From Acidilobaceae archaeon (lineage in GTDB: Archaea; Thermoproteota; Thermoprotei_A; Sulfolobales; Acidilobaceae): DNA of 64,000 nt. Below, piece after piece: positions 39,602 to 57,464 of this stretch. The notes beneath the pieces are model-generated. The model had not been told where the DNA came from. It did not search any database and worked only from the letters and a program-made list of their open reading frames with translations. Position 1 is the first letter of the stretch; each line of letters begins with the position of its first letter. Location of the stretch: contig JALWEI010000036.1 in NCBI GenBank assembly GCA_027014125.1, positions 1 to 64,000 of the forward strand. Direction: 5' to 3'. The translations under genes were made by a program, and so were the position numbers.

Positions 39602-41245
39602 ATGCCCCTAGCCAGCATCGAGGATCTATCCCTAGCCTACGGTATGAACCATTACCTAGTAGACACCCCCCTTAGGGACACACTCCGCTACTACCTAGGC
39701 TCCGAGCCTTCCCTAAGCGGCCTCGGGGAGTATGCCGGGGGCTACCTCTACGAGGTGGCCTATCGGGTCGACAGGATCAACCCCCCGGTTCACATAATGT
39801 GGAGTGTTAGGGGGGATAGGAGCGACGTTGCCTGGCTAGACCCCTCCCACAGGAGGGTAATCAAGGACCTCATGCTAACCTACGGAGTAAACAGGCACCC
39901 CTTCCAGGAGGAGGGTGGATGGCACACCCACTACGCGTCCATAAACCTGATCGGGGACCCCGGCCTGGCGTGTATACTGACGATCACCGTACAGACAGCA
40001 TATGCCCTAGAGAAGTACGGTAGCGACGATGTACGCGGGTACTACAAGAACCTTGCAGGCATCGAGGAGCCGATCATGCTAGGCGCCACCTGGTTCACCG
40101 AGATACAGGGAGGAAGCGACCTAGGGGCCAACACAACCACCGCAAGGAGGGTAAACGGCAAGTGGGTCCTAGACGGGTACAAGTACTTCGCCAGCGGCGC
40201 GGGCCTCGCGGATATAGCACTAGCAACCGCCAGGCCCCAGGGAGCTAGGCCAGGCGCAAAGGGACTCGCCCTCTTCGCTGTACCCCGTATCCGCAGCGAT
40301 GGCAGGCTAAACTATAGCGTGAGGAGACTGAAGGAGAAGAGCGGGACCATCCCAGTACCCACCGGGGAGGTCGAGCTAGCCGGGTCCGAGGCCTACCTTC
40401 TGGGGAGGAGCGACGAGGGCATATACTACACCCTCGAAGACCTGATGGTCTCCAGGCTATCCAACTCCGCTGGTGCCATCGGGATAGCCAGGAAGGCCTA
40501 CCTGGAGGCCTACCAGTATGCCAGGCATAGGAGGGCCTTCGGAAGGAGGATCATAGAACACCAGCTAGTCAGGAGGGATCTCCTCGAGATGGAGGTCCTC
40601 ATAGAGGAGTCCCTAGCCATAACCCACAAGGCAGTACAGCTCTTCCAGGACTCCACGGGAGATAGACCCCCATACACCTCAACATACCACTACGCCAGGC
40701 TAATGACACACATAGCCAAGAACCTAACAGCCCAGGCAGCCGCCAGGGTCACAATGCTAGCCATGGAGCTATTCGGCGGCATAGGCTTCCTCAGAGAGTA
40801 CACCATAGAGAGGTGGCACAGGGAAGCCCTCATAACACCGATATGGGAGGGAACCAGCAACATACAGGCCCTAGACATGCTGGAGGCCATGTACAAGAAG
40901 AAGGCCCACGAGCCCCTGATCGAGGACCTAGACTCGATGGCGAGGGAAGCCTATGACAAGGAGCTGGCCCTGAAGGCCGTGGAGGCGGCTAGGACCTCGC
41001 TGGCGAGGACCAGCTCCATGCCCCCCAGCGAGGCCGAGTTCCGTGCAAAGTACCTACTCGAGGACCTAGGCCACTCCACCGCCGTGGTACTACTAGAGTC
41101 CATGGCCTCCAGCCTAGGGGAGGAGAGGTACCACCACGTAGCCAAGATAGTCTACGACTCCCTACTACACAGGAAGCCCATCGAAAATCCCGGGGATACG
41201 GTGCTTGAGGACATCATAAGCCTGGGCGGGGGGCTAGAGCTCTAG
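39602..41245 (+). CDS. Acyl-CoA dehydrogenase, AidB-like subfamily
   Basis: 547 residues, ATG start. ATWFTEIQGGSDLGANTTTA is the FAD and substrate segment typical of AidB-like members. RRAFGRRIIEHQLVRRDLLEMEVLIEESLAI and ITPIWEGTSNIQALDMLEAM are the conserved C-terminal parts. FAD-dependent oxidation of an acyl-CoA to enoyl-CoA is the family reaction; AidB-like proteins may have other substrates. The last 12 bases overlap the convergent kinase gene. Confidence 0.9.
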   Translation: MPLASIEDLSLAYGMNHYLVDTPLRDTLRYYLGSEPSLSGLGEYAGGYLYEVAYRVDRINPPVHIMWSVRGDRSDVAWLDPSHRRVIKDLMLTYGVNRHPFQEEGGWHTHYASINLIGDPGLACILTITVQTAYALEKYGSDDVRGYYKNLAGIEEPIMLGATWFTEIQGGSDLGANTTTARRVNGKWVLDGYKYFASGAGLADIALATARPQGARPGAKGLALFAVPRIRSDGRLNYSVRRLKEKSGTIPVPTGEVELAGSEAYLLGRSDEGIYYTLEDLMVSRLSNSAGAIGIARKAYLEAYQYARHRRAFGRRIIEHQLVRRDLLEMEVLIEESLAITHKAVQLFQDSTGDRPPYTSTYHYARLMTHIAKNLTAQAAARVTMLAMELFGGIGFLREYTIERWHREALITPIWEGTSNIQALDMLEAMYKKKAHEPLIEDLDSMAREAYDKELALKAVEAARTSLARTSSMPPSEAEFRAKYLLEDLGHSTAVVLLESMASSLGEERYHHVAKIVYDSLLHRKPIENPGDTVLEDIISLGGGLEL

Positions 41246-42166
41246 TCCAACCCTCCCCGCCGCCTCTAGGACCTCATCCTGCGTGGGGGCCTCGTGGGAG
41301 CCAAGCCTGGCAACCTTCAGCGACGCAACCAGGGAGGCGTAGAGGCCAGCTTTCTCCACGTCATACCCCCTAAGGAGGCCCACTATCAGGCCCGCAGCGA
41401 AAGCGTCTCCAGCCCCCGTGGTGTCTACAACCCTCTCCGGCCTGAACGCCCTGATCCTATACACCCTTCCCTTGTAGAGTATCAGCGCGCCCTCACCGCC
41501 CAGCTTGACGACAACTATACCCGGGCCCAGGCCTTGTATCCTCCTAGCCGCCTCCACGGGGTCACCCGTTCCCGCTAGGCTCTCCGCCTCCTTCCTGTTG
41601 ACGAGAACTATATCGACGCCCCTAACCATGGATGATAGCCCCTGGAGGCCCTTCCTAGCTAAAACCCTGCCCGGATCCCAGGATATGGTGGCCCCTGCCC
41701 TCCTGGCTGCCTTTGCCGCCTCGAGGGAGGTGTCTATCCTTAGGCTTGCAATGTGCACGTGCCTGGCCCTGGAGAGTATGTGGACTGGCAGGTCCCTGGG
41801 CTCTAGCTCCTCCGCCGCCCCCTTGTAACTGTATATGGCTATCGATCCTTGTGGGTTCATCGCTACTATGGAGAACCCTGTTCTCCTTGTGAGGGATACG
41901 CTGAGGCCCGTTATGTCTACCCCCTCCCTCATGAGGCCGTCGACGGCTATCCTGCCGAAGTCGTCCAGCCCGATCTTGGCTACAACCCCGCTGGCCACCC
42001 CGAGCCTCCTAGCGGCTATGGCCACGTTAGCGGCGGATCCCCCTACTCCCCTCGTCTCCCTCGTTATCCTAGCTTCATCATCTGGGCCCGGTATGTGGTC
42101 CACCTGGATCCTGATATCCACTAGTATGTGTCCTACTGTTATTAGGTCTATGGTTTTAGCGATCAA
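41234..42166 (-). CDS. PfkB-family sugar/nucleoside kinase
   Basis: 310 residues. GVGGSAANVAIAARRLG and the C-terminal VVDTTGAGDAFAAGLIVGLL (anion hole and catalytic Asp) identify the ribokinase-like fold. In the archaeal branch such proteins phosphorylate fructose-6-phosphate, KDG, nucleosides or ADP-ribose-like substrates. Its place behind aldolase and GAPN genes fits a sugar role, but the substrate is undetermined. It starts 19 nt after the aldolase stop. Confidence 0.88.
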   Translation of the reverse strand: MIAKTIDLITVGHILVDIRIQVDHIPGPDDEARITRETRGVGGSAANVAIAARRLGVASGVVAKIGLDDFGRIAVDGLMREGVDITGLSVSLTRRTGFSIVAMNPQGSIAIYSYKGAAEELEPRDLPVHILSRARHVHIASLRIDTSLEAAKAARRAGATISWDPGRVLARKGLQGLSSMVRGVDIVLVNRKEAESLAGTGDPVEAARRIQGLGPGIVVVKLGGEGALILYKGRVYRIRAFRPERVVDTTGAGDAFAAGLIVGLLRGYDVEKAGLYASLVASLKVARLGSHEAPTQDEVLEAAGRVGLEL

Positions 42167-42184
42167 CGCTGTTGCCCCCGTGTC

Positions 42185-43039
42185 CTATCGTAGCGCCTCC
42201 CCCGCCTCCCTGGGGGTGGCCCCCTTGTGTATGATCAGCTTGAGCGCCTCTACCATGCCCTCCAGGTTTTCTGCCTGGAATATGTTCCTGCCGACCACCA
42301 CACCCTTGCCGCCAGCCTGGACTACCTCGTAGGCTTTTTCTAGAAACTCCTGTGGGGTTCTCGTCCTTGCCCCTCCGCTCATGAGTACCGGCACCCCCTG
42401 GGCCGCCTCTACTACCCTCCGAAACGTCTCCATGGACCCGGTGTAGTAGGTTTTTATCAGGTCTGCCCCGGTCTCCATGGCTGCCCTTGCCCCGTACTCC
42501 ACGATCTCCACCGCGTACCGGTTCTCTATGGATGGGCCCCTGGGGTATGCCAGTTGTAGTGCTGGCATTCCTAGGCTCTCCGCCTCTAGCCTGATCCTTG
42601 TCCACCTCTCTAGCATGAGGTTCTCCTCGGGGCTCCCCCAGTATACGGTCGCTGCCACTGCATCGGCCCCCATTGCCGCTGCCTCGTGGACCGTGCCTAT
42701 CGGGCTCTGGAGTAGCTGGTTCTCCGCTGGCCTGAGGCTGGTTTTGCCTGTAACCTTGATTATCATGGCGGTCCTCCCGGCCCATATGTCCCAGGTCAGC
42801 CTTGCTATGCCGGGGGTTGTCATGATCGCGTCGACCCCGGCTTCTACTACCTCCTCTATGATCCTGCGTGGGTTCCTTCTGGGCCTCGGTATCTCGCCTG
42901 GCCCGTGCTCTACGCCGTGGTCGAAGGCGAATATGAGGGAGCGGCCTCCTGGTAGTATCTTTGATAGTCTAACCCTCTTGCCTATGTAGCTCGGCGGGTC
43001 CACGATTCCCTTGCCTCCATGTGCTACATGTACTCCCAT
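42185..43039 (-). CDS. Archaeal class I fructose-1,6-bisphosphate aldolase (DhnA type)
   Basis: 284 residues, ATG start, overlapping the GAPN gene end by 16 bases. [28 protein letters not shown] and [10 protein letters not shown] with the Schiff-base lysine, then VLMSGGA and [10 protein letters not shown], are the DhnA aldolase motifs. It splits FBP to dihydroxyacetone phosphate and glyceraldehyde-3-phosphate or runs in reverse. Related enzymes make other ketose phosphates, so the exact role is likely but not certain. Confidence 0.9.
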
Positions 43040-44562
43040 ATGCCCTTGCCCTTGTAGTTGTATACTATGGTCTTCCTGGCCGTGACGTATTCTATACTGT
43101 ATCCTATGCCCTCCATTCCTATACCAGAGTCCTTGCGGCCCCCGAAGGGGTAGTAGCCTATACCATGCCTGGGATACTCGTTTATGTAGATGGCCCCGAC
43201 CTCGAGTAGGCGGATCAGCTTCCTGATCTTGTTTATATCCCTCCCAAATATGGCGGCGTCCAGCCCGTACCTCCTCTCGTTCGCCAGCTCTATCGCCTCA
43301 TCAACCCCGCTCACCGGGGTTATTACTGCTATTGATGCGAATATCTCATCCCTGAACACCCTAAGCCTCCTGAGGACCTCCTTGTCCCTAACCTCTATTA
43401 GCGTTGGCTCGATGTAGTTGGGGCCGAGCTTCCTGCCCCCATAGAGGACCTTGCCCCCGGCTTCCTCCGCCTCCCTTGCAGCTTCTACTACCTCATCCGC
43501 AGTGGCCTCATCGATGAGGGGGCCCATTGTGATGCTTGGATCCCTCGGATCACCTATCTTAGCCTTTGCCAGCTCCTCTACAAGCTTCTTCTTCAGCTCC
43601 TCGTAAACCGGCTCTTCCACGAGGATCAGCTTTATGGAGTCACACCTCTGCCCACTATAGCTGACTATCCCGGTCGCTATCTTAGACGCTGCCAGGTCTA
43701 GGTCTGCGTCGTCTAGTACTATAGCTGGGTCGCCGCCGCCGAGCTCCATTATGAACTGCTTTATCCCTGCCTCCCTTATCACCCTAATACCGGTCTCTGT
43801 GCTTCCGGTTAGGCTTATCACGTGTATCCTCCTATCCCCGACTAGCCTGCCTGAGTCCTTGCCTGGTAGTGGGAGTAGTGCTATGCTCGACTGGGGCACC
43901 CCGGCCTCGAGGGCTAGCTTTACGAAGTAGAATATCGGTATGGGGTCCGCGCTGGGCGGCTTCACTATGAATGCGTTGCCGGGTAGGAAGCTATAGGTGA
44001 ACTTGTTCACGGTGTCGAATAGCGGGTAGTTGAATGGTATTATTGAGAGCACGACTCCATAGGGCTCCCTCCTAACTAGCCCCTCGCTTTCTAGGGTGTG
44101 GGCGTCCCAGTCCCCGGGTATGTATTCTCCGTGTAGCTTCTTCAAGTCTAGTGGTGCTCTCCTTAGCCTGTCTATGCTTGCCTCCACTTCCCCATGGGCC
44201 GCCTTCACGGGCTTACCGGCGTTGATTACCAGAGCCTCTGCTATATCGTCCTTATACCTCTCCATGAGGTCTGCTATCCTAGATATTATCTCTAGCCTCC
44301 TCTCTCCAGGTATGTTTCTTGCAGCCCTCCTGCCCTCCCTGTATACCTTCTCTAGGGCCGAGTCTACTTGGCTCCATGTGGGAGTGTAAACCCCCGCTAT
44401 TGTTGTCCCGTCTATAGGGCTCCTTATCCATCTTACCCCTGTACCCTCCTCCCACGCCGTGGCGGTGTAGTGCTTGAACACCGGCTTTCCGTTTATCTCT
44501 ACCACTAGGTCCTTGGCCCAGGGTGGGACGTTGTATTCTACTGGTCCTAGGAGCTTGATCAT
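43024..44562 (-). CDS. gapN: Non-phosphorylating glyceraldehyde-3-phosphate dehydrogenase (GAPN-like aldehyde dehydrogenase)
   Basis: 512 residues from ATG 44562, preceded by GAGGGGTGG; the frame's first codon at 44601 lies at or upstream of the predicted transcription start. [34 protein letters not shown] with the catalytic cysteine and [20 protein letters not shown] match crenarchaeal GAPN. It oxidises GAP directly to 3-phosphoglycerate with NAD(P)+, a hallmark of modified archaeal glycolysis. It is the first gene of a unit with the aldolase and kinase. Confidence 0.88.
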
Positions 44563-44611
44563 GCCGTGTCCACCCCTCATCCTTATCAATAGATTATTCA
44601 CACGTGTAGGG

Positions 44612-44622
44612 GTTATATATTT
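44612..44622 (-). promoter_or_regulatory. TATA box of the gapN-aldolase-kinase unit
   Basis: AAATATATAA on the minus strand, predicting transcription near 44590 and a leader of about 25 nt to ATG 44562. About 25 bp further upstream is a perfect inverted repeat ATTAA-ACGA-TTAAT (44642-44655). Confidence 0.5.
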
Positions 44623-44718
44623 TCATGTATCATTAATATAAATTAAACGATTAATCCTCATGCAATATTCGAATAAATAGGAAAAATGGAGTTTATAGAA
44701 CATGGTCCAGTGCCGGGA

Positions 44719-47700
44719 TTACAGGCTAGCCTCCCTACTCCTGGCCCCCACTGCTAGGGTTAGCACCGCTGCAAGTACCATGCCACCAGCGGCTGATACG
44801 CCGTAGTCCACGATCTCAGGGTAGGGATGATCACCCTGCTTCTCCGCCACGAAGCCTATCTCAACAGTCTCGCCAGGGTCTATCACCGAGGTGTAGCCTA
44901 CCGGGGTTAGCACATATGTGTTGTTCCCTAGATACTCCGCGTTGGCGCCCCATATACTGTTTATCGTGCTAGTCATGTAGATCTTCACGTACCACCCGGA
45001 TACCGGCGTGTCCCCTATGTTCGTTATGTAGATCCTTGCAACGAACCCGGTATTCCACTCACTGTCTATGACCAGGCTTACCTCCAGGGAGCCTGGGCTG
45101 GGCTGCGGCGCCGTCCAGTTATCTAGGACCTGGCCGTTCACCACCAGTAGGATCTCCTCTACCAGCGGGTTCTGGCCCCTGGTTATGAACCCGGCTGTTG
45201 CTATTGGGCCAAGGTTCCACTGCTCTGAGACTAGTACTATGTAGCCGTCTGGGGTGGTGCCGTTGGCCACTGCACCCCAAGAGTTGTCTATGTAGCCGTC
45301 GGCCACCTTCACCAGCAGGCTCCACTCCGACTCCTGGTCTAGCGTCACAGTTACCTCGTAGTGGGCCCCGCTCCCCCAGGAGTTGACTAGCTCCACCTCT
45401 AGGCTGCCCGCGGTGGCCCCGCCCGAGCCGCCACTATCCCCGCCGCCGGAGCCCCCGCCTGAACCGTCTCCTGGTGGCGGGGGTGGCGTTGTTAGTAGCG
45501 GGTCTCCTGTTGGGGTTAGGTTGAAACTGTAGATCCACCATTCCATGTGGGCTGAGGTCGTTGACGGGCTCCCGTACTCTGTGCCGACCTCCACATCCTC
45601 CAGGTATAGGCTTGCGTAGTCGGCTAGGTCTGTTATGTTCGCGGCGGTGCTTATGAATGGCGAGTAGGGTAGCGTTACTGTACCCGCCTTTATCGGGGTC
45701 GTTATCCTGAACGCTATGTACTCCCAGCCTATGAATGCCTTCCAGACCTCGAAGGTAGCGTTGACCTCGGTCCCGTTGACTATTATCGGTACAACTATCT
45801 CTCCTACCTTGGAGCCGGCGGGCTGTAGGCCGTCGTAGTATAGCCATATCATGAGCTCCTGCTCGTCGGGCTGGATCCCGGTGCTCCTCCACTGGTCCCT
45901 GGTTAGCCAGGATTCTATAGCTAGGTTGACTGGTAGCCCTGGCTCGGGGTTGAGGCTGTAGCTGACTGTCACATAGAAGTTATTCAGGTCTGCTACTCTT
46001 GCTGGTAGTGGTACTGGTCCGTCGGTCGCGTTATACTGGTTCCAGGGCTTGTTGCCGTAGAAGATTTCGGGGTAGCCGTGCACCCATGATCCGGGGTTCC
46101 TCAGGACTATGTTGTCCAGGGCTTGTATGTAGTGTAACGTGCCGTTGCTTGGGTAGAATGTCATCACAGCATAGCCGCTCGCGCTGTCGATGTTCCACGG
46201 GTTTATCTCTATGACATACTCGTTATACCCGTCATTGTCTAGGTCTATCTCGGCGGTTGGCCACAACTCGTCGGGGTACCTTATAGATACTGGTCCTCCC
46301 TGGCCTCCACCACTGGATACTTGTATAGTCACTGATGCGTTAGAGTCTCCGTTGCTGTTCCACACGTAAATGTAGTATGTGGTCGTGGTGCTTGGCGTCA
46401 CCACCGTGGAGCCGTTGTGGGGGACTACTCCTATTCCAGGTATATTGGTATCCCAGCCGTCTGCCTCGGTGACTGTCCATTGTAGCTGAACCGGTTCTCC
46501 TGGAGTTATGCTAGTGGTGTTGGCTACTAGCGTCACTGTTGGTGGGCTGCCTGGCTGTATGGTCTCGTTGACTGGGGTGCATGTTATGTTTATCTCGTCG
46601 AAGTCGGCGTAGACGGTGTGGTTGGGTGCCCAGTTGCTGTCTGAGCCTCCGAAGAATGTCGAGAAGTAGAAGCTGTCTATGTAGGCCTTTTGCCCTTCTC
46701 CCCTTAGCTGTATGTTTGACATGTTTAGCGCCATCGTGTCGTTGATGTAGACTATTATGTATGCATCAGCCTGTCCCGCGGTGCCCACGTATATCTCCTG
46801 GCTTATCTTGTACCATACCCCGGGCACCACCGTGTAGTTTAGTGATATGTAGTCTCCGTAGCTCCTCTGCTGGTTCATCCAGTAGAGGTATAGGAATAGT
46901 GCCGCGTCGCTCCTATTATAATCGCTCCTCCAGTCGGGCGTCTTGTCCCCCCTCCACATGAACCTGGCGCTCCATCCCTCACCGTTGCTGGGTACCCTGA
47001 AGCCTGTCCACTGGCTCCCTCCACTGGTTAGGCCCGGCAGCTTGCCTCCCTTACTGAAGTCGAAGCCGTCCTCGAACCTAACCAGGTAGTCTAGACGGCA
47101 GTACTGAGACTCTGGCAGGTTCACCACGAATGACGCCCCACTGTTCCTGGAGCCTGCCTGGCCTGCCGGGTACTCGATTCTGAGGTACCTGTTGCCTGCC
47201 TCCTCTGCTATCGTGGCCCTTCCATCCAGCCTTGACCAGTTTATGTCTAGGAAGTCCTCCTGTAGAGCTGCTTCCGTGTAGGGGCCCGGTTGCCTATTCT
47301 GGAAGTCTACGTATAGGTTGAAGTAGCCCGTGCTGGGGGGCTGCTGCCCGTCTCCTGGCTCTCCTGGGGGCGGCTGGCTGGAGCCTGCCCATGCAGCTAG
47401 CGCCTCCCATGGGGTGAGGCTCCTGGGTGCTAGGGCGTAGTAGTACTCTTCTAGGCTCCACCTTATATCCACGTTGCAGGGGAAGGCTGGGCAGGTGTTG
47501 GTGTATACCTCTGTCCCGAACTCGAGGGACATTAGGTATAGGCTGTCTAGGCCTCCTCCTAGGTACTGGTTGGCTAGCTCTATGAAGTACGTGTAGTCGA
47601 ACACCACGCTGCTATTCACGTAGTTGGTCGTTGACTTGAATGTTAGGAACCTCCACCCTGGGTCAGCTACAACGTCGTATAGCTCGAATGTCTGGTTTAC

Positions 47701-49845
47701 CAGCGTCCCGTTAACCAGTATGGGTACCTCGAACACCGCTACCGGGCCACTATCGTAGCCAGCGGGGAAGCCCCCCTCTATGTATAGCTGGACCATTATC
47801 TCGTAGTCTCCCGGCCCCGGAGCCCTGTTGTTATTTGTATCGGGGAATAGCCATGCCTCGAAGGCGTAGTTGTTGCCAGGCACGCCGCTATACTGGTTGT
47901 AGTGCACCCCTACTAGTAGCCTTGGTAGGCTTGACACCATGGCTGGTAGTACGAAGTTGGGTGCGTTCACCGGCTGGTTGCCCCATGGCTTAGCCCCATA
48001 GATAACCTCGTGGTATCCCATAACGTTGTATTGTGGCACGGAGTTTATGGTCCACTGGCTATCCACGTGTAGTGCTCCTGACTCGATCCACATGGTTGTG
48101 TTCCCGCTCCCGATCTGGCCTGGGTCGGTCTGGTAGAGGTGCTGCCATCCCCACAGGTTGGGGTCTATACTTGCGTTACCTATCCTAACGACGCCCCATA
48201 GGTTGGGGCATCCCCATATGCTGGAGCAGCATTGGCCCCCATCGCAGGTTACGGTTGATGATGCCCCCTCATACTGGGGCGTCGTGGGTATTATCTCTAC
48301 TACGTCGAATGGCGGGGGTTGGGGCTGGTCTTGGCCCTGCCCTACTGTTATGGTCAGGGTCTTGTTCACGCTGCCGTTCGTATTCCATGCGTGTATGTAT
48401 AGTGTTATGGTTTGGTTTACTGTGATCACTGTTGAGCCTGTCTGGCTTGTTGCTATGTTGCTGTCCCAGCCGTCTGCGTTCTGTATGCTCCAGTTGACCA
48501 TGATGCTCTCTCCGGGTTCTACGCTTGTGGCGTTTGCTGTTAGTGTTACTTGTGGTAGGCCTGCCTGGCTACAGTGGTCCATAAGTCTCTTCAGGTTCTG
48601 GTATTTGTCCTCCCATATATTAGTCCAGTCGTCTTGGAGTATGCCTCCGGTGTCCCCGCTGTTGGGGTTCCAGCTCCAGTAGAAGAAGCTACAGAAGTTG
48701 TTCTCTATCATCCAGTCTATTAGCTTGTTCTGCCAGTCCACATCTCTGGGGTCGCCTCCGTGTCCGTATCTTCCTCCAAATTCTCCTATGACAACCGGGT
48801 ATCCTAGCTCTATCTTGACATAGCCGAAGTGGTGGTACCATATATCAGGCATGTTGTCCGGGAAGTCTGGCTCGTTGAAGTATGGCTGGTTGTAGACGTC
48901 GGGGCCGTAAACGTGTGGGCTGTAGACAAGCTTGTTCCTGGGAAGGTTCACGGGGTAATCCCTTACTGCCATTAGGTTGCCTCCCCACCAGGAGTTGTAG
49001 CCCCACTGGTAGGATCCGTCTATGTCTGGCCTGGTGTACTGCGTGCCCTCCATGAATATCAGCCAGTGGGGTGCCACCTGTAGTATGGCCCTGCCTATCC
49101 TCTCCGCCGCCAGGTTCCAGTCTGTAGCATTGTTGCCCATGCCCCAGGTTGCCCCTGTGCCATCGGTGTATGCCCCTGGGGGCTGGCTCACGCTGTGGGG
49201 CTCATTCTTCAGGTCAGCCCCTATAACGTTCCAGTATTTCGAGAACCTCTGTGCCACGCTTACCCATGTGTTTATGTAGTCCTGCTCTGTGAAGGTGTCC
49301 GTGTACCATAGCGGCTCAATGTATTGGCACCCGATCCTGTGGTAGTCTAGCAGTATGAATATACCCAGCTCTCCCGCCTTCTGTACGATCTTCTCCATTA
49401 TCTCGAGGCTCGTGAGACCCTGAAGGTCTGGATTCTTATTGTAGTCTATGGAGGTGGGCATTGTTCCTGGTTGTACTGATTCTGTGCAGAATGGTAGCCT
49501 TATGGCGTTGAATCCTAGACTCTTTATCTGGAGTAGCATGTCCTCCCAGTTCCTGGCCCATAGCCCGTGGACCACGTGGTCTGGTGTTTCGAACCCGAAC
49601 CAATTGACACCGTACAGGTTTATCTTCTTCTCCTCGCCGCTAGTTAGGTTTATCATGTAGATAGCGTCTCCCCTTACCTCGTAGTATACTGTCGTGTTAG
49701 CCTGCTGTTGTGGCGTGTATAGTGTTATCGACTTCAGGGGGCTGCCTTGCCATGTACTACTCAATCCAACTCCTGGCACTATGGAGAGGTAGGGCATTGC
49801 CATTATGATTGCCAGGAGTATGGCTATGAAGGTTCTGGCCTCCAT
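44719..49845 (-). CDS. Giant multidomain cellulase: GH5, Ig, GH12, PL14-like, Ig, GH12, CBM2, CBM2, TM
   Basis: 1708 residues, ATG start. Signal peptide about 1-28. GH5 at about 74-425 with acid/base E215 (LKNEP) and nucleophile E355 (VIGEFG). Ig-like module 430-502 (VTLTANATSVEPGES). First GH12 at about 514-805 with E682 (YEIMVQ) and E779 (FGTEV). PL14-like jelly-roll 840-1090 (FEDGFDFSKGGKLPGL, FSTFFGGSDSNWAP). Second Ig-like module 1101-1176. Second GH12 at 1186-1448 (GYPEIFYGNKPWN, E1330, E1423). Pro/Gly linker 1449-1480. Two CBM2-like modules, 1481-1580 and 1585-1686. A terminal hydrophobic helix 1687-1700 followed by RSR probably anchors it. All glycosidase catalytic glutamates are present. 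It should cut cellulose and related beta-glucans at the cell surface. A GH5-GH12-GH12-CBM2-CBM2 enzyme is known in a Thermococcus strain; the PL14-like insert sets this one apart. Domain borders are by eye. Confidence 0.92.
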   Translation of the reverse strand: MEARTFIAILLAIIMAMPYLSIVPGVGLSSTWQGSPLKSITLYTPQQQANTTVYYEVRGDAIYMINLTSGEEKKINLYGVNWFGFETPDHVVHGLWARNWEDMLLQIKSLGFNAIRLPFCTESVQPGTMPTSIDYNKNPDLQGLTSLEIMEKIVQKAGELGIFILLDYHRIGCQYIEPLWYTDTFTEQDYINTWVSVAQRFSKYWNVIGADLKNEPHSVSQPPGAYTDGTGATWGMGNNATDWNLAAERIGRAILQVAPHWLIFMEGTQYTRPDIDGSYQWGYNSWWGGNLMAVRDYPVNLPRNKLVYSPHVYGPDVYNQPYFNEPDFPDNMPDIWYHHFGYVKIELGYPVVIGEFGGRYGHGGDPRDVDWQNKLIDWMIENNFCSFFYWSWNPNSGDTGGILQDDWTNIWEDKYQNLKRLMDHCSQAGLPQVTLTANATSVEPGESIMVNWSIQNADGWDSNIATSQTGSTVITVNQTITLYIHAWNTNGSVNKTLTITVGQGQDQPQPPPFDVVEIIPTTPQYEGASSTVTCDGGQCCSSIWGCPNLWGVVRIGNASIDPNLWGWQHLYQTDPGQIGSGNTTMWIESGALHVDSQWTINSVPQYNVMGYHEVIYGAKPWGNQPVNAPNFVLPAMVSSLPRLLVGVHYNQYSGVPGNNYAFEAWLFPDTNNNRAPGPGDYEIMVQLYIEGGFPAGYDSGPVAVFEVPILVNGTLVNQTFELYDVVADPGWRFLTFKSTTNYVNSSVVFDYTYFIELANQYLGGGLDSLYLMSLEFGTEVYTNTCPAFPCNVDIRWSLEEYYYALAPRSLTPWEALAAWAGSSQPPPGEPGDGQQPPSTGYFNLYVDFQNRQPGPYTEAALQEDFLDINWSRLDGRATIAEEAGNRYLRIEYPAGQAGSRNSGASFVVNLPESQYCRLDYLVRFEDGFDFSKGGKLPGLTSGGSQWTGFRVPSNGEGWSARFMWRGDKTPDWRSDYNRSDAALFLYLYWMNQQRSYGDYISLNYTVVPGVWYKISQEIYVGTAGQADAYIIVYINDTMALNMSNIQLRGEGQKAYIDSFYFSTFFGGSDSNWAPNHTVYADFDEINITCTPVNETIQPGSPPTVTLVANTTSITPGEPVQLQWTVTEADGWDTNIPGIGVVPHNGSTVVTPSTTTTYYIYVWNSNGDSNASVTIQVSSGGGQGGPVSIRYPDELWPTAEIDLDNDGYNEYVIEINPWNIDSASGYAVMTFYPSNGTLHYIQALDNIVLRNPGSWVHGYPEIFYGNKPWNQYNATDGPVPLPARVADLNNFYVTVSYSLNPEPGLPVNLAIESWLTRDQWRSTGIQPDEQELMIWLYYDGLQPAGSKVGEIVVPIIVNGTEVNATFEVWKAFIGWEYIAFRITTPIKAGTVTLPYSPFISTAANITDLADYASLYLEDVEVGTEYGSPSTTSAHMEWWIYSFNLTPTGDPLLTTPPPPPGDGSGGGSGGGDSGGSGGATAGSLEVELVNSWGSGAHYEVTVTLDQESEWSLLVKVADGYIDNSWGAVANGTTPDGYIVLVSEQWNLGPIATAGFITRGQNPLVEEILLVVNGQVLDNWTAPQPSPGSLEVSLVIDSEWNTGFVARIYITNIGDTPVSGWYVKIYMTSTINSIWGANAEYLGNNTYVLTPVGYTSVIDPGETVEIGFVAEKQGDHPYPEIVDYGVSAAGGMVLAAVLTLAVGARSREASL

Positions 49846-49884
49846 ATATACACACCCTTTTTTAATTCACCGTCCTCTATGGTA

Positions 49885-49927
49885 GAATATAATTAAGTAA
49901 TACAGGATTATAAGCTTATATCGTTAC
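49885..49927 (-). promoter_or_regulatory. Cellulase promoter region
   Basis: In the very AT-rich gap before the cellulase, TTAATTATATTC (minus strand, 49885-49896) is the best TATA candidate, some 45 nt before ATG 49845, with AAGGGTG as ribosome-binding site. Upstream lies GTAACGAT (49920-49927, minus strand), an octamer also found at the GH1 promoter. Confidence 0.4.
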
Positions 49928-49966
49928 CCTATTATATTAATATAATTACATTATAATTAATTTATT

Positions 49967-50908
49967 TTATTGGTATAGCCAGCACGCTACTCTTCTACCA
50001 TTATACTCCACTAGCCTTGGCCTGGCGGCGCACTTGTTAAACCTCAGCTCACACCTGTCAGCGAATAGGCATCCACTCCTTCCAATAGCATGTAGGGGCT
50101 CGTGGAGCCTCAGCCTGCCTCGCCACCTAGAGTCCAGCCTGGGTATGGAGTCTAGGAGCATCCTTGTGTAGGGGTGAGCTGGCTCGTCTAGGACCTTGGA
50201 TACGTCCCCCTCCTCCATGACTCCTCCCCTATATAGCACTACCACCCTGTCGCTGACATAGTATGCTAGGGAGACGTCGTGTCCTATCAGTAATATTGAC
50301 GTACCCAGCTCATCCCTCATCTCTGCGAATATGTTGAGTACGTCAATCCTGGTTGAGGCGTCCAGCATCGAGACAGGCTCATCCGCCACTAGTAGCCGCG
50401 GCTCCACTAGCAGAGCCCTGGCTATGGAGACCCTCTGGAGCTGGCCTCCGCTCAGCTGGTGTGGGTACTTCCCGAGGACCTCACTTGGGCTTAGGCCTAT
50501 CCTCCTGAGGACCTCCCTCACCCTTCTGAGCGCCTCCTCTCCCCTCACCCCCTTGAGCCTGGAGAGTGCTTGGAGTAGGGGCCTCTCAACTACGTGTATT
50601 GGGTTAAAGCTTGAGTAGGGGTCCTGGAAGACTCCTTGAACCTGTGTGTAGTACCACAGCGTTTCCCTTCTCCCTAGCCTCCATATGTCTCGCCCCCTGT
50701 AGAGTATCCTTCCCTTGGTAGGTCTGAGTATGCGCAGGACCATCCTTGCTATTGTGGTCTTCCCGCTTCCGGATTCTCCTAGTAGCGATACTATCTCGCT
50801 CTCCCCCACCTCTAGTGTCACGTTGTCTACAGCAACTGTTACCCTGCCCATTCCGTGGCTGAATACCTTTGATACCCCGTGTAGCTCGAGAAGCGCCATG
50901 TACATCAC
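49967..50908 (-). CDS. Opp-type ABC transporter ATPase (OppF-like)
   Basis: 313 residues. Walker A GESGSGKTT, Q-loop VQGVFQDPYSSFNPIHVV, signature LSGGQLQRVSIARALL, Walker B LLVADEPVSMLD, and the C-terminal CxxxxxC extension GCLFADRCELRFNKC of Opp ATPases. It partners the OppD-like ATPase, overlapping by four bases. Nearest to the cellulase gene, so uptake of cello-oligosaccharides is inferred. Confidence 0.93.
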   Translation of the reverse strand: MMYMALLELHGVSKVFSHGMGRVTVAVDNVTLEVGESEIVSLLGESGSGKTTIARMVLRILRPTKGRILYRGRDIWRLGRRETLWYYTQVQGVFQDPYSSFNPIHVVERPLLQALSRLKGVRGEEALRRVREVLRRIGLSPSEVLGKYPHQLSGGQLQRVSIARALLVEPRLLVADEPVSMLDASTRIDVLNIFAEMRDELGTSILLIGHDVSLAYYVSDRVVVLYRGGVMEEGDVSKVLDEPAHPYTRMLLDSIPRLDSRWRGRLRLHEPLHAIGRSGCLFADRCELRFNKCAARPRLVEYNGRRVACWLYQ

Positions 50909-51852
50909 CCTCCTGTATATAGCCAGCAGTACACTGTTCTCTTCCCCACCCTAGCCGGTGGGGGCTCCCTGGCCCTGCACCTCTCCTCGGCCACGCTGCA
51001 CCTGGGGTGGAATCTGCATCCTGTCGGGGGGCTGGCTAGCCTGGGCGGCTCTCCTTTGAGGCCTGTCAGCCTCCTGGTTTTGTACCTGACTCCGAGCCGG
51101 GGGACGGAGTCTATCAGCGCCCTGGTGTAGGGGTGTAGCGGGTCTCCTATCACCTCCTCTGCTGGGCCTATTTCCGAGATTTTCCCTGCGTACATGATCA
51201 TGATCCTATCCGCCACCTGGTATAGGGCTGCTATATCATGGGAGACTAGGATTATGGATCTTACTATCCCTGTGTCCCTGAAGCTTGCAAGCATCTCTAG
51301 GACTGCTCTCTGCATTGTAACGTCTAGGGCTGAGGTTACCTCATCGGCTATTAGCACGTCTGGGTCGAGTAGCGTTGAGATTACGAGTACTACCCTCTGT
51401 CTCATGCCCCCGCTGAGCTCTATAGGGTACCTGTCTAGCACGTCTCCTGGCAGTCCGACCATTCTTAGCCTCTCTCTGGCCTTCTCCTCGATATCGCCTT
51501 CAGCCCTGCCCCGGGTTAGGTCCCTTATTATCGCCCTGATCCTCTTTGTTGGGGATAGCGCGTCCATAGCGTACTGGGGTACTATTGATATACCGGTGTA
51601 CCTGATCTTGGATAGCTCCCCTGGGGTTATGCTTGTGAGGTCTATCCCCCTGTAGACTATGGACCCTGCTATCCTAACCATTGGCGGCTTGGGTAGTATT
51701 ATGTAGTTTACCAGCGTGCTCTTCCCGGATCCGCTCTCGCCTGCTATCCCCAGTATCTCGCCCTTGGATAGGGTGAATGTGACACCATCCACTGCCCTAA
51801 CATACCCGCTTAGCGTCTTGTAATATACCCGTAGGTCCTCTACTCGAAGCAC
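50905..51852 (-). CDS. Opp-type ABC transporter ATPase (OppD-like)
   Basis: 315 residues. Walker A GESGSGKST, ISIVPQYAMDALSPTKRI, signature LSGGMRQRVVLVISTL, Walker B VLIADEVTSALD, switch SHDIA, and the C-terminal TGCRFHPRCSVAEERC zinc-like or Fe-S-like cysteine segment. Part of the five-gene transporter. Confidence 0.93.
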   Translation of the reverse strand: MLRVEDLRVYYKTLSGYVRAVDGVTFTLSKGEILGIAGESGSGKSTLVNYIILPKPPMVRIAGSIVYRGIDLTSITPGELSKIRYTGISIVPQYAMDALSPTKRIRAIIRDLTRGRAEGDIEEKARERLRMVGLPGDVLDRYPIELSGGMRQRVVLVISTLLDPDVLIADEVTSALDVTMQRAVLEMLASFRDTGIVRSIILVSHDIAALYQVADRIMIMYAGKISEIGPAEEVIGDPLHPYTRALIDSVPRLGVRYKTRRLTGLKGEPPRLASPPTGCRFHPRCSVAEERCRAREPPPARVGKRTVYCWLYTGG

Positions 51853-51859
51853 TCGTAGG

Positions 51860-52702
51860 TCACCTCCTCAGCCTAGGGTTTAGGACCTCGTCTAGGCCAG
51901 TGTTGACCAGGTAGAGTGCGGTGAGTAGTACAGCTATGAGTAGTCCTGGCGGTATGGCCCACCACCACATGCCAAGCTGTATAGCGTTCCATAGCACTGC
52001 CTGCTGGAGGATTACCCCTAGGGATATGCTATCTGTTGGCCCTAGGCCCAGGAAGTCTAGGCCAACCGCGTAGAGTATTGCTCCACCGAACTGTAGGATG
52101 AAGACCATTATTATGTATGACAGCATGTTTGGCATGATCTCGCTTACTAGTATCCTAGCCCCTCCTAGCCCCGAGAGCTTGGCTACGTAGACGAATTCCC
52201 TGCTCCTTAGGGACAGGGTGTTCGCCCTGACAGCCCTGGCGGTCCATGGCCATGCTGTTAGCCCTATTATTAGGCTCTCGACGCCTATTCCCCTCTGCTC
52301 TATATAAGCTGCTATTATGATGAGGAGGGCCAGCGTGGGGATGACCAGGAAAATATTGGTTATCATCATCAACATCTCGTCTGCTAGGCCTCCTAGGTAG
52401 CCTGATGCTAGGCCTACTGCTACGCCGATCAACGTTGCTATTACTCCCCCCAGTAGGCCTATTGCTAGTGAGCCCCGGAGGCCGTAGACTACTTGTGCAT
52501 ACACATCGTAGCCGAATGTGTTTGTTCCTAACGGGTGCTCCCTGCTCGGCGGGGCTCCTATATCCCCTGTATAGTCTAGGGGGCCGTAGCCTGTGGTGTA
52601 TGGTCCTACTGCCGCGATAGCCACTATTATTACAAGTACCATTATGCCTATCCTCACCTTCGGGTTTGCGAGGGCCAGCTTGGCTGGCATCCGGTTCATC
52701 AC
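51860..52702 (-). CDS. Opp-type ABC transporter permease (OppC-like)
   Basis: 280 residues, ATG start overlapping the OppB-like gene by four bases. HPLGTNTFGYDVYAQVVYGLRGSLAIGLLGG is the OppC N-terminal block, and VYVAKLSGLGGARILVSEIMPNMLSYI is the EAA loop. About six membrane helices. Confidence 0.93.
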   Translation of the reverse strand: MMNRMPAKLALANPKVRIGIMVLVIIVAIAAVGPYTTGYGPLDYTGDIGAPPSREHPLGTNTFGYDVYAQVVYGLRGSLAIGLLGGVIATLIGVAVGLASGYLGGLADEMLMMITNIFLVIPTLALLIIIAAYIEQRGIGVESLIIGLTAWPWTARAVRANTLSLRSREFVYVAKLSGLGGARILVSEIMPNMLSYIIMVFILQFGGAILYAVGLDFLGLGPTDSISLGVILQQAVLWNAIQLGMWWWAIPPGLLIAVLLTALYLVNTGLDEVLNPRLRR

Positions 52703-53694
52703 GTTTCACCCGTGTAGGTGTACCTAATTCTTGGATCTACAAGCGCATATACTATATCCACTATAAAGTTTGATACAAGTACCATTATTACAATGACTAG
52801 GAAGGCTCCCTGCATTAGGAAGTAGTCCTGGTTCTGTATAGCCTGGAGCATGAGGTACCCGAGGCCAGGGTAGGAGAATACTATCTCCGTAGTTATTGCC
52901 CCCGCCACTGCCAGGCCTATCTGGAGCGCAAGCCCGGTTATCTGGGGCAGCATCGCGTTCCTAAACGCATACCTAAGTATCAGCCCCCTAGGAGCCCCCA
53001 GAGCCTCCATGTACCTCGAGTAGTTCGACTCTATCTCATATATTATAAGGTTCCTCATGCCTATAGCCCAGCCCCCCAGCATTACTAGGACCAGGGAGAG
53101 GAATGGTAGGGTCCAGTGCATCAGGAAGTCCTCTATGAAGGCTAGGGATAAGGAGGGCTCTAGGCCCGGGCTATAAGCGCCCGAGGGTGGGAATATGGGG
53201 AATACAACAGTCAGGAGCCAGGCTAGCACGATCGCCATCCAGAAGTATGGCGACGAGGTTAGGAAGTAGAATACAGGCATGAGGAGCGCGTCTAGCCTCC
53301 TACTCACCGAGGCCAGGGCCCCCAGCCAGTTCCCTATGATCCAGCTCACAATAACGGCTGGTACTATGAGGACCAGATCGTATGGAAGCGCATCTAGGAG
53401 TATATCCTCCACCTTCCTAGGATACAGGTATATGCTAACCCCCAGATCGCCACTTAGCAGGGCCCTCCAGAAGTTGATGTACTGCTCATGCAACGGCTTG
53501 TCTAGGCCGAAAGCCTGCATGAAGTAGCTATACATTACCTCGGTCGACTGGGGCAGCGTGGAGAACCTGGAGAGGAGCACTCCTATAGGATCCCCAGGCA
53601 TGAGCCTGGGTATGCCCCAGTTTAAAGTCGCAGCTACTATGAATGTGATCGTGTACACCACCACCTTCTTTGCGAGGTAGCTGTTGAAACCCAT
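52699..53694 (-). CDS. Opp-type ABC transporter permease (OppB-like)
   Basis: 331 residues, ATG start. The N-terminal helix and PRLMPGDPIGVLLSRF, GDLGVSIYLYPRKVEDILLDALPYDLVLI and the EAA loop YSRYMEALGAPRGLILRYAFRNAMLPQ are typical of OppB/DppB permeases. Forms the channel with the OppC-like subunit. Confidence 0.93.
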   Translation of the reverse strand: MGFNSYLAKKVVVYTITFIVAATLNWGIPRLMPGDPIGVLLSRFSTLPQSTEVMYSYFMQAFGLDKPLHEQYINFWRALLSGDLGVSIYLYPRKVEDILLDALPYDLVLIVPAVIVSWIIGNWLGALASVSRRLDALLMPVFYFLTSSPYFWMAIVLAWLLTVVFPIFPPSGAYSPGLEPSLSLAFIEDFLMHWTLPFLSLVLVMLGGWAIGMRNLIIYEIESNYSRYMEALGAPRGLILRYAFRNAMLPQITGLALQIGLAVAGAITTEIVFSYPGLGYLMLQAIQNQDYFLMQGAFLVIVIMVLVSNFIVDIVYALVDPRIRYTYTGET

Positions 53695-53825
53695 ACACTA
53701 ACTCCCACTATCCTTATATTATTATTTCTCCTTTAAAAACGTTTGCATGTATATTTAGTGTAAATAAAAATAGTGTATGCTATGGGTACGCCCGCCTATA
53801 CCAGCTAACACCATATTACTACTCT

Positions 53826-55745
53826 TTACCGCCTCCTAGCCACCACAACTGCAACTATGGCAGCTATGATAACCAGTAGAACGGCTATCATACCTAGGCC
53901 TGCTCCTTCTCCCTGGCTAGCCTCGGAGCCTGCCTGTGTTATCGTAGTCGTGATTGTCTGCTCCTTGGTGACTACTTTACCCTCCTCCGTTACCGTCACC
54001 GTCTTAACTATCTCCTTCGTGACTACCTCACCTCCAGATGCCGCGGTGGGCTTCAGGTTGAGTAGGACTAGTACCCCACCAAGCTGCCAGTTGCCTGGCC
54101 AGGTAACTGGGACCCCGTAGGGGTTTTCCTCGCTGGGCCATCCGGTCCAGTGTAGAGTTGAGGCTTGGAACCAGAATCCGTTGTACCATAGTGGTATGTA
54201 TGGTAGGTCCCTGAGGAATATTTCTTGTAGCTTCCTGTATAACTGTTTCAGTGTTTCCTCATCGTCTACTGGTGTTACTAGTATCTTCTCCATTATCTGC
54301 TGGACCTCGCTGTTGAAGTACCTGCCGAAGTTCCCGTTCCAGCTGTTCTCGCCTATGGGTGGGGTATTGTTGTAGAATATCCAGTTGTACATGGTCCAGG
54401 GTGTCGGGGAGACGAAGCTATTGAAGTTGTTTATAGCCATGTCGAAGTAGCCCTTAGTCAGGTCGTCGAAGTACTTGGAGTAGTCGGGGAACTTTGGCTC
54501 GACGTTTAAGCCTACAGCCTTTAGGTTCTCTGCTATGATTCTGATGGACTCCATCCAGTCGGTCCAGCCGAAGGGGACTATTATTGTCAGCTTTATCCTC
54601 TCCCCGTTGGGGGCCTCCCTGTAGCCGTCCCCGTCTATGTCCTTGAAGCCCAGCTGGTCTAGTATCTGCTTGGCCTTCTCCGGGTCATATGTGAACCCCA
54701 TCTGCTTGTCTAGGTCCTCTGCGTAATACTTCTGCCAGCTGGGTATTGGCAGGAATCCTACCGAGTTTGATTTTAGCACGGTCCCCTCGAAGACCCTGTT
54801 TATGATCTCGTCTACATTTATAGCGTATGCTATCGCCTTCCTGAACTCTGTGATGTTTAGTGGGTACTTCTGGTTGTTTATGAATAGGAATGCCACGTTT
54901 GCGGGGAGGTGGAATGGCTTGTCCTTGTACCAGGTGTGTATGAAGTCGTACTGTCGTACCAGCTGTGGCACGCCAGGTAGGAAGAAGTTGCTCCAGTCGA
55001 GGTCTCCCCTTACTAGCATGGCTAGGGCTACATTGTTGCTTGAGACCCTCAGGTATACTATGTACCTTGGCCCCGGTTCTCCGTATACCTTTGTGCCCCA
55101 CCAAGCATTGTTATACTCGTAGACCACCTGGCTCTGGTCGTAGGACTTGAGGCGGTACATGCCGCTACCTATAGGGTTCTCATTCGCCTCCTCTAGGGGC
55201 TTGTCTATGTTCTCCCATATGTGCTTGGGTATTATGTAGATCGTGTATAGGTAGTACTGCCACTCCGGGTAGTGGGGCTGGCTGAATATGAACCTGACAG
55301 TCCTGTCATCTACTATCTCTATCCTGTCCAGCCAGTCCCATATGCTGGAGTAGTATATCCCCTCATGCATCCTGGCGTACTCGAAGGTGAATTTTACATC
55401 CTCAGCAGTTAGCGGCTCCCCGTCCTGCCACCTGGCCTCTCTTATCCTAACCTCGTAGGTCTTATTGTCGATCCACTCGCCCTCCTCGGCCAGCCATGGT
55501 ATGAACTCGTCCTTCACTGGGTTGTATAGGAATAGGGGTTCATAGATTAGTCCCACTACCCCCGTAGCGGCTGCCCATGGTGTGAGGGGGTTGAAGTTGC
55601 TGGGCGGTGCCCAGAGGCCGCCGCCCACGTATATAGTCTCCTCCCGTGGTAGCTGCTGAGCTGTGGCTGGGATTGGGGCTAGTGATGCTATGACTAGGAC
55701 CGCTAGTAGGAATGCAGTGACCCGGGCTGGGGTGCGTGTAGTCAT
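53826..55745 (-). CDS. Family 5 extracellular solute-binding protein (probable oligosaccharide binder)
   Basis: 639 residues from ATG 55745, behind GGAGGCGG; the open frame upstream adds 17 unlikely residues. Signal peptide about 1-30 (VTAFLLAVLVIASLAPIPATAQ). The SBP_bac_5 core shows FTFEYARMHEG, PIGSGMYRLKSYDQ and LRDLPYIPLWYNGFW. A Thr/Val-rich stalk and a C-terminal helix (GLGMIAVLLVIIAAIVAVVVARRR) anchor it to the membrane, a usual archaeal arrangement. Homologous archaeal proteins bind cellobiose and other beta-oligosaccharides; the next-door cellulase and GH1 support this. Peptide binding cannot be excluded. Confidence 0.9.
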   Translation of the reverse strand: MTTRTPARVTAFLLAVLVIASLAPIPATAQQLPREETIYVGGGLWAPPSNFNPLTPWAAATGVVGLIYEPLFLYNPVKDEFIPWLAEEGEWIDNKTYEVRIREARWQDGEPLTAEDVKFTFEYARMHEGIYYSSIWDWLDRIEIVDDRTVRFIFSQPHYPEWQYYLYTIYIIPKHIWENIDKPLEEANENPIGSGMYRLKSYDQSQVVYEYNNAWWGTKVYGEPGPRYIVYLRVSSNNVALAMLVRGDLDWSNFFLPGVPQLVRQYDFIHTWYKDKPFHLPANVAFLFINNQKYPLNITEFRKAIAYAINVDEIINRVFEGTVLKSNSVGFLPIPSWQKYYAEDLDKQMGFTYDPEKAKQILDQLGFKDIDGDGYREAPNGERIKLTIIVPFGWTDWMESIRIIAENLKAVGLNVEPKFPDYSKYFDDLTKGYFDMAINNFNSFVSPTPWTMYNWIFYNNTPPIGENSWNGNFGRYFNSEVQQIMEKILVTPVDDEETLKQLYRKLQEIFLRDLPYIPLWYNGFWFQASTLHWTGWPSEENPYGVPVTWPGNWQLGGVLVLLNLKPTAASGGEVVTKEIVKTVTVTEEGKVVTKEQTITTTITQAGSEASQGEGAGLGMIAVLLVIIAAIVAVVVARRR

Positions 55746-55800
55746 AAGGGTTCCGCCTCCTGCATCCCTACTCTTGTTTAGTATTAGATACAACACTTCG

Positions 55801-55811
55801 CTATTTATAGC
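55801..55811 (-). promoter_or_regulatory. TATA box of the transporter operon
   Basis: GCTATAAATAG on the minus strand, about 60 nt before ATG 55745. Predicted transcription near 55780 with a leader of about 35 nt carrying the GGAGGCGG ribosome-binding site. It is divergent from the GH1 promoter. Confidence 0.5.
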
Positions 55812-55851
55812 TTTATATCTCTATAACTACATATACTTTGATATACTTGTA

Positions 55852-55928: not shown

Positions 55929-57464
55929 TTGCTACCTAGCGACTTCCTATGGGGCGCATCTATGTCGTCATTCCAGTTTGACATGGGCGACAGGTATAGG
56001 AGGAATATCGACCCTAATAGCGACTGGTGGGTTTGGGTACGCGATAGGAGGAACCTGGAGGAGAAGCTTGTCAGTGGTGATCTGCCCGAGGATGGGGTCA
56101 ATTATGCAGAGCTCTACCACATAGACCACGGGCTTGCCAGGAGTCTGGGCATGAATGTTTATAGGATCCAGGCCGAGTGGAGCAGGATCTTCCCCTGCCC
56201 GACGTATCATGTCGAGGTTGATGTAGAGCACGATGGCTCGGGCCTGGTTAGTAGGGTTAGGGTAACGGGTGAGACGCTTAGGGAGCTCGACTCGATAGCC
56301 AACCATGGTGAGGTAGAGAGGCTCCGGAGGATCATAGAGGACCTGAGGAGGAACGGAATGAAGGTCATAGTGAACCTTCACCACTTCACCACTCCAGTAT
56401 GGCTCCACCACCCCATAATCAGTAGGGAGACTAGGCTAAGGAAGGGCCCCCTAGGTATAGTCGACCATAGGTTTATAGTTGAGTTCGCCAAGTACGCTGC
56501 GTATGTTGCATGGAAGCTAGGCGACCTAGTCGACATGTGGTCAATCTACAATGAGCCCATGGTTCTGGTTGAGCTGGGCTATATGGCCCCCTTCGTCGGC
56601 TTCCCGCCGGGGGTCAACGATCCCCGGGCCGCCGCGGCTGGGCTCAGGAATATTATAGTCTCCTACGCTAGGGCCTATGACGCCATAAAGGAGTATGATA
56701 CCGTTGAGGCCGGGGACTGGGGAGTGGGCCCGGCGATGGTAGGTGTCATACACAACATCATACCAGCGTACCCCCTTGACCCCGAGAGGGATGAGAGGGC
56801 GAGTTCCAGCTACAACTATTTCCACAACGAGCTGATACTCGACGCCTGGAGCCGGGGCCTCTATGACCACGACCTTGACGGGGAGCGTAGTAGGGTGGCC
56901 CACCTCGCCGGGAGGCTGGACTGGATAGGCCTGAACTATTATACCAGGATAGTTGCTAGGAGGGGGAAGGCGCCCGAGGGGATACCTGTCCTCGAGTTTG
57001 AGGGTGTTGGGGGGTACGGGTATGCGTGTATAGCTAATGAGCTATCCAAGTCTGGGAGGCCCTGCGACGACTTCGGCTGGGAGATGTTCCCCGAGGGGTT
57101 CTACGACGCTATAAGCATGGTCAGCAGGTACGGGGTCCCGGTTTACATTACCGAGAATGGGACAGCCGATGCTAGGGACTACTATAGGCCTAGATACCTG
57201 GTTTCCCATATAAGGGCGCTGGAGGCTGCGGTGGAGGACGGCTTCAGGGTCGAGGGCTACATGCACTGGGCCCTCACCGACAACTACGAGTGGGCCCGGG
57301 GCTTCAGGCTCAAGTTCGGCTTATTCAGCGTGGACATGGTTACTAAGGAGAGGATACCCAGGCTCAGCGCTAAAATTTTCGCTCGTATAATTAAGAGTAA
57401 TGGGGTGCCTAGGGATCTACTAGAGCTCTCCATATGGGATCATAGTAGGGGTGTGGGGGTGTAG
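55929..57464 (+). CDS. GH1 beta-glycosidase
   Basis: 511 residues, TTG start; no in-frame ATG is available upstream. N-terminus LPSDFLWGASMSSFQFDMGD, acid/base E209 in IYNEP and nucleophile E409 in YITENG, plus HWALTDNYEWARGF, place it with the Sulfolobus LacS-type hyperthermophilic GH1 enzymes. No signal peptide, so it acts inside the cell on imported oligosaccharides, most likely cellobiose and cello-oligosaccharides, though galactosides or mannosides are possible. Divergent from the transporter operon, followed closely by a VapBC pair. Confidence 0.94.
   Translation: MLPSDFLWGASMSSFQFDMGDRYRRNIDPNSDWWVWVRDRRNLEEKLVSGDLPEDGVNYAELYHIDHGLARSLGMNVYRIQAEWSRIFPCPTYHVEVDVEHDGSGLVSRVRVTGETLRELDSIANHGEVERLRRIIEDLRRNGMKVIVNLHHFTTPVWLHHPIISRETRLRKGPLGIVDHRFIVEFAKYAAYVAWKLGDLVDMWSIYNEPMVLVELGYMAPFVGFPPGVNDPRAAAAGLRNIIVSYARAYDAIKEYDTVEAGDWGVGPAMVGVIHNIIPAYPLDPERDERASSSYNYFHNELILDAWSRGLYDHDLDGERSRVAHLAGRLDWIGLNYYTRIVARRGKAPEGIPVLEFEGVGGYGYACIANELSKSGRPCDDFGWEMFPEGFYDAISMVSRYGVPVYITENGTADARDYYRPRYLVSHIRALEAAVEDGFRVEGYMHWALTDNYEWARGFRLKFGLFSVDMVTKERIPRLSAKIFARIIKSNGVPRDLLELSIWDHSRGVGV

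Follow-up and report, generated by a model that had tools for sequence, protein, structure and literature searches.

The window, a stretch of 64,000 nucleotides from an Acidilobaceae archaeon, encodes a multidomain cellulase that carries a polysaccharide lyase domain of family PL14 between its two GH12 domains. The GH5-GH12-GH12-CBM2-CBM2 core and a Trp-to-Gln change within it are already known from a published Thermococcus enzyme; what is new is the presence of PL14 within such a cellulase, and with it a GH5+GH12+PL14 fusion that lies outside the four surveyed types. We consider it likely that the protein is a secreted, probably surface-anchored enzyme with four catalytic domains, with which a hyperthermophilic archaeon of the Acidilobaceae type would degrade mixed beta-glucan and polyuronate. 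A wider reading is, in our judgment, evenly poised: that this is the first archaeal hyperthermophilic single-chain enzyme to break both beta-glucan and alginate- or glucuronan-type polymers, a Thermococcales-type cellulase joined to a PL14 lyase of bacterial type, and that its genus recombines lyase, GH12, and GH114-like modules via Ig-like spacers, including a whole enzyme domain inserted inside an Ig-like fold.

The protein is encoded in a single uninterrupted frame of 1708 codons with no internal stops, and its modules follow the order SP-GH5-Ig-GH12-PL14-Ig-GH12-CBM2-CBM2-hydrophobic tail:

44719..49845, minus strand: whole ORF, 1708 aa, about 189 kDa, ATG start
49765..49845, minus strand: signal peptide, residues about 1-27, hydrophobicity maximum at 5-25
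48550..49713, minus strand: GH5 endoglucanase domain, residues 45-432 (E215, E355), from Pfam and identity to EGPh
48310..48549, minus strand: Ig-like spacer 1, residues 433-512, from alignment with Ig-like spacer 2 and the Ig of a paralogue
47422..48309, minus strand: GH12-1, residues 513-808 (E682, E779; Q686 replacing Trp)
46543..47340, minus strand: PL14 polysaccharide lyase domain, residues 836-1101 (K935, S959, R961, Y986, Y988), from Pfam, an AF2 model, and Foldseek
46297..46542, minus strand: Ig-like spacer 2, residues 1102-1183, the site of a GH114-like insert in a sister species
45478..46296, minus strand: GH12-2, residues 1184-1456 (E1330, E1423; Ca motif DLDNDG at 1201), 71% identical to 7s8k
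45112..45426, minus strand: CBM2-1, residues 1474-1578, chitinase-type, from a match to 2cwr
44806..45108, minus strand: CBM2-2, residues 1580-1680, Pfam PF00553 2.7e-16
44737..44799, minus strand: C-terminal hydrophobic segment, residues 1683-1703, then R-S-R, a putative membrane anchor

The first-pass annotation had proposed a 1708-residue frame with one GH5, two GH12, two CBM2, and two Ig-like spacers, and all of these were located. Pfam places GH5 at residues 78-396 (PF00150, E 3.2e-51), GH12 in two stretches (PF01670, 4e-38 overall), and CBM2-2 at residues 1589-1677 (PF00553). CBM2-1 (1478-1574) received no Pfam call and is recognized by its match to the binding domain of the solved chitinase 2cwr (E 4.7e-19). 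Pfam gave no match for either Ig-like spacer; the two align with each other and with the other Ig-like modules of the genus. The proposed signal peptide and C-terminal tail correspond to strongly hydrophobic segments at residues 5-25 and 1683-1701, the latter a putative surface anchor. All six glutamates named as catalytic occupy their expected positions, a pair in GH5 and a pair in each GH12 copy. Neither a lack of GH12 or CBM2 matches nor a loss of these glutamates, the outcomes named beforehand as refuting that reading, was found. The description was correct but incomplete: its three glycosidase domains stand, but residues 836-1101 had been left unassigned and a further catalytic-type domain was thereby overlooked. 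Since PL14 fills this stretch, the catalytic domains number four (GH5, GH12-1, PL14, and GH12-2).

The core of the protein points to the Thermococcales. GH5 shares 82% identity with the Pyrococcus horikoshii enzyme EGPh, versus 55-67% with the crenarchaeal GH5s sampled. For GH12-2, the identity is 71% to 7s8k, which we take to be the structure of GH12-2 from a Thermococcus multidomain glycosidase (MDG), and 69% to P. furiosus EglA, versus at most 49% to the crenarchaeal GH12s sampled. Unlike the window protein, EGPh and EglA are single-domain enzymes. Because GH5 and GH12-2 are nearer to Thermococcales than to sampled Crenarchaeota, a transfer of the core between the crenarchaeal and Thermococcales lineages is well supported by these identities, which imply no direction; the suggested move between distant hyperthermophiles holds as a transfer in this sense. 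A tblastn search against plasmids gave only matches below 60% identity, those listed being to GH5, and a plasmid origin of the ORF was rejected on this ground.

The suspected kinship to a Thermococcus enzyme is borne out by the MDG of Thermococcus sp. 2319x1 (GH5-12-12-CBM2-2, gene of 3912 bp; PMC4853606), which we compared through its solved domains and published coordinates. It shares the order GH5, GH12-1, GH12-2, CBM2, CBM2, the Gln for Trp in GH12-1, and the Ca motif in GH12-2. Its GH12 domains lie at 508-754 and 834-1070 (PMC4853606, PMC12265866), and as only about 80 residues separate them, the MDG has no PL14 at the place where the window protein carries one, which rules out an ordinary Thermococcus-type MDG as the full answer. 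The MDG is also euryarchaeal, and an N-terminal signal peptide alone has been reported for it. In the window protein, Q686 of the GH12-1 motif EIMVQL aligns with W1334 in ELMIWLY of GH12-2. Both this substitution and the differing specificity of the two GH12 domains, each remarked on or anticipated from the sequence in the first-pass annotation, are already in the literature: the change is known from two Ignisphaera aggregans enzymes as well as from the GH12-1 of Thermococcus, the two Thermococcus GH12s differ in specificity, and MDG GH12-1 is active on xylan, arabinoxylan, and beta-glucan (PMC12265866).

The additional domain is recognized by the Pfam PL14 model (PF21294 at 882-1084, E 9.9e-33, 114 bits versus a cut-off of 27). 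A phmmer search with this part alone returned AkAly30 (5gmt, 1e-13), Aly36B (6kcw, 8e-8), and, weakly, vAL-1. The AlphaFold model of residues 836-1101, built from 41 sequences, is rich in beta-strands, with a mean pLDDT of 92.3 and a pTM of 0.90. When this model was submitted to Foldseek, the top matches were 6kcw (Aly36B, PL36), 5gmt (AkAly30, PL14), and 3gne; in the PDB the model comes closest to three beta-jelly-roll lyases, Aly36B, AkAly30, and vAL-1, followed by the glucuronan lyase 2zzj, with TM-scores from 0.79 to 0.53. The domain is therefore predicted to adopt a beta-jelly-roll fold like that of vAL-1 and AkAly30. We also considered an assignment to PL36, in view of the first rank of Aly36B in Foldseek, but the score of the Pfam model and a tree that separates the archaeal clade from the Aly36B side led us to prefer PL14, with the PL14/PL36 boundary decided by the Pfam model.

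Relative to AkAly30 (from Aplysia) and Aly36B, the window domain shares the predicted fold and the aligned catalytic-type residues, whereas the identity in structure alignment is about 23-25% and both relatives are mesophilic. The PDB lists the Aly36B mutants K143A, M171A, and Y185A, whose sites align to K935, M963, and Y986. All 41 aligned PL14 domains have K935, R961, and Y986, S959 is found in 38 of 41, and Y988 in 40 of 41; for K935 the invariance is in part a product of the retrieval, as GGK belonged to a pattern used to collect this set, one that did not fix R961 or Y986. Comparison of the window with two genomes of its genus, G399 and G400, gave dN/dS values for PL14 (0.054 and 0.110, respectively) close to those of GH12-1 (0.034 and 0.093) and GH12-2 (0.056 and 0.077), and we conclude that PL14 is kept by purifying selection.

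Lyase activity would be a natural reading of these data. The rival is that the module is no longer an enzyme and has a polysaccharide-binding or structural role, the protein being functionally an MDG-type cellulase. The substrates of its relatives are diverse, and the related beta-jelly-roll, lyase-like Cip1 boosts cellulose hydrolysis while its own activity is unsettled (PMC8287770). The only cysteines within the domain are 916 and 1089, neither forming a counterpart of the AkAly30 loop disulfide Cys115-Cys124, which has been linked to polyM specificity (PMC8618178); the domain thus lacks the loop disulfide of the polyM-specific AkAly30-type lyases, and this absence also fits a binding role. 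Against it, the Lys, the Ser, the Arg, and both Tyr of the site are retained in all three archaeal copies, and its dN/dS matches the low values of the GH12 domains. We think loss of catalysis unlikely and keep to a candidate lyase, whose activity and substrate the sequence suggests.

The combination of a glucanase with an alginate-lyase-type domain was, to our knowledge, previously found only in seaweed-digesting bacteria. A 2026 survey that looked for added GH domains across the alginate-lyase families of CAZy described GH5+PL31, PL14+GH9 with CBM2, PL7+GH16+PL6, and PL7+GH16; the representatives, those with PL14 and CBM2 included, degrade both alginate and glucans and come from marine bacteria, and archaea are unmentioned (PMC13235733). 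Like CelAly (GH5+PL31) and the PL14+GH9+CBM2 fusions, the window protein joins a glucanase, an alginate-lyase-family domain, and binding modules in one chain, and it has CBM2 in common with the PL14+GH9 type. Unlike them, it is archaeal and pairs GH5+GH12+PL14+GH12, a set absent from the four combinations of the survey. Judged by its sequence, it would follow the same principle in a different combination and a different domain of life. We note that a planctomycete protein of 2164 aa (L052 3007-9498) carries PL14 with a GH81 C-terminal domain and DUF1996, a glucanase fusion also outside the four published types, and that large ORFs in L053 and L055 have PL14 domains near-identical to its own.

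A trivial origin of the fusion, in which misassembly or annotation joined modules of different genes, was also weighed. MAG contigs can be chimeric, and one of the sister contigs discussed below (L039) has low coverage (cov 1.41). However, the frame runs uninterrupted through all 1708 codons in an assembly that is 99.8% complete, every module compared is under purifying selection, and the independent MAG G399 (L037/L038) repeats the module order of the window with 92% identity over 1526 aa, its frame (L037) being open to the contig end, inside CBM2. Because an independent MAG has the same order, we reject misassembly, which we regard as very improbable, and treat the fusion as a genuine gene.

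A rearranged version of this gene, absent, like the surrounding locus, from the first-pass annotation, is found in the sister species G400 (L036/L039 1-4356). There, PL14 precedes GH12-1, the 5' part of the gene lying beyond the contig start, and a GH114-like domain (PF03537, 3e-9) lies within Ig-like spacer 2, following the motif NIPG. The model of the insert stretch (pLDDT 85.5) runs from beta strands through an alpha/beta part to the remaining strands, and among PDB structures it best matches the PelA hydrolase and GH191 alpha-galactosaminidases. The window's genome also has a paralogue (G000:C18; L003 37-2529, minus strand), which encodes 830 aa in the order GH114-Ig[GH114]-CBM2-CBM2 and has an ortholog in G399 (C42); in both, the second GH114-like domain occupies the same Ig site as the insert in G400. 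The insert is 62-64% identical to these paralogues, whereas the catalytic modules are 78-85% identical between the same genomes, so that the insert is probably an old relative of the paralogue domains, and not simply a misjoined copy of the paralogue gene. The GAPN gene is kept beside the G400 copy, which places both at the same locus. The position of PL14 on the other side of GH12-1, together with the GH114-like insert, indicates that modules move within the genus, and we propose that the Ig-like and low-complexity linkers serve as exchange points for module insertion and permutation.

The PL14 lyases known so far are bacterial, molluscan, or viral. In the library that we searched there was no report of an archaeal PL14, an archaeal alginate lyase of such kind, or an archaeal glucanase-lyase fusion. 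Three of 147 relatives carry PL14, and all three belong to the window's genus; of 398 sampled Thermoproteota, the window's genome alone has it. When 84,980 species were scanned with one genome each, 112 PL14 loci were confirmed; two of the best 80 of these 112 are archaeal, and they belong to MAGs of a Desulfurococcales archaeon and of an Acidilobaceae archaeon, the same two sister genomes. Across the relatives, the Thermoproteota sample, and the best 80 scan loci, PL14 was found in no archaeon outside the window's genus. One 8-kb stretch of an Arcicella MAG contig (L097) holds six PL14/PL36-like genes in a row.

The archaeal PL14 domains, three in number, form a single clade (100/100) in a tree of 92 sequences, and this clade lies inside a group with five Bacteroidota sequences and one Verrucomicrobiales sequence (99/94); the verrucomicrobial sequence has a long branch, so that the tree gives the group, not the exact sister, of the archaeal clade. 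The nearest bacterial domains are 38-43% identical. The nesting of the archaeal clade among bacterial PL14s points to acquisition from bacteria, and the GC of the module, equal to that of its neighbours, fits an acquisition that was not recent.

The surroundings of the gene form a compact predicted glucan-utilisation locus (41234-57464), with an importer and a GH1 upstream and three genes related to sugar metabolism downstream:

41234..42166, minus strand: PfkB-family sugar kinase, below every equivalog cut-off
42185..43039, minus strand: archaeal class I fructose-bisphosphate aldolase (FBA), NCBIfam NF040816 over its cut-off
43024..44601, minus strand: archaeal non-phosphorylating GAPN, NCBIfam NF040869 over its cut-off
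49967..53694, minus strand: two ATPases and two permeases of an opp/dpp-type ABC importer
53826..55796, minus strand: ABC solute-binding protein (1vr5 and 4pft 1e-198, 4pfu 5e-196), closest to Thermotoga manno/cello-oligosaccharide binding proteins
55929..57464, plus strand: GH1 beta-glycosidase, divergent from the importer operon (Pfam 1e-61; 7f1n 3e-161)

The three structures matched by the solute-binding protein are Thermotoga proteins, and one of them is annotated as mannoside binding. By eye, a GH1 fragment is also present upstream of the G399 gene. A uronate catabolic cluster beside the gene was considered and rejected: the PfkB falls under the KDG-kinase equivalog cut-off and the aldolase is a fructose-bisphosphate aldolase, and the locus is therefore one for glucan, not uronate, with a predicted route from glucan to glycolysis. 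A search for an oligo-alginate lyase, a KDG kinase equivalog, and a uronate pathway demonstrated none of them; a DHDPS-family aldolase is present, but this family occurs in all 14 control genomes. Near that aldolase lies a gene (L141 2434-3810, minus strand) for a protein of surface type, whose N-terminal part is rich in repeats and looks beta-propeller-like by eye; a long Thr/Val-rich stalk ends in a hydrophobic tail.

The natural target could also be a microbial exopolysaccharide or biofilm matrix, the organism's own or that of neighbours, instead of algal or plant debris. Bacteria produce both cellulose and alginate in biofilms; the insert of the sister protein resembles PelA and GH191 enzymes, and the paralogue with two GH114-like domains and two CBM2 in the same genome continues a GalN-polymer theme. 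The three glucanases, the CBM2s, the GH1, and the oligosaccharide importer, on the other hand, suggest use as a carbon source more than remodelling of a matrix. We hold the biofilm target as a tentative possibility, and the two uses can coexist.

In the role we favor, that of an enzyme acting on mixed beta-glucan and polyuronate, GH5, GH12-1, and GH12-2 would cut beta-1,4- and mixed-linkage glucan chains while the two CBM2 modules would tether the protein to insoluble cellulose or to material resembling chitin. PL14 would cleave an acidic polyuronate of the alginate or glucuronan type via beta-elimination, and this cleavage may open or co-degrade the matrix around the glucan. The resulting oligosaccharides would be taken up by the adjacent ABC importer, split by GH1, and passed to glycolysis. 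Such an enzyme would have arisen from a core exchanged with Thermococcales and a PL14 gained from bacteria. If active, it would provide a very heat-stable lyase coupled to cellulases, of use for seaweed biomass, and hyperthermophilic archaea would be among the degraders of composite cell walls or biofilms. Module shuffling inside one genus can, for its part, be read from the sister genes.
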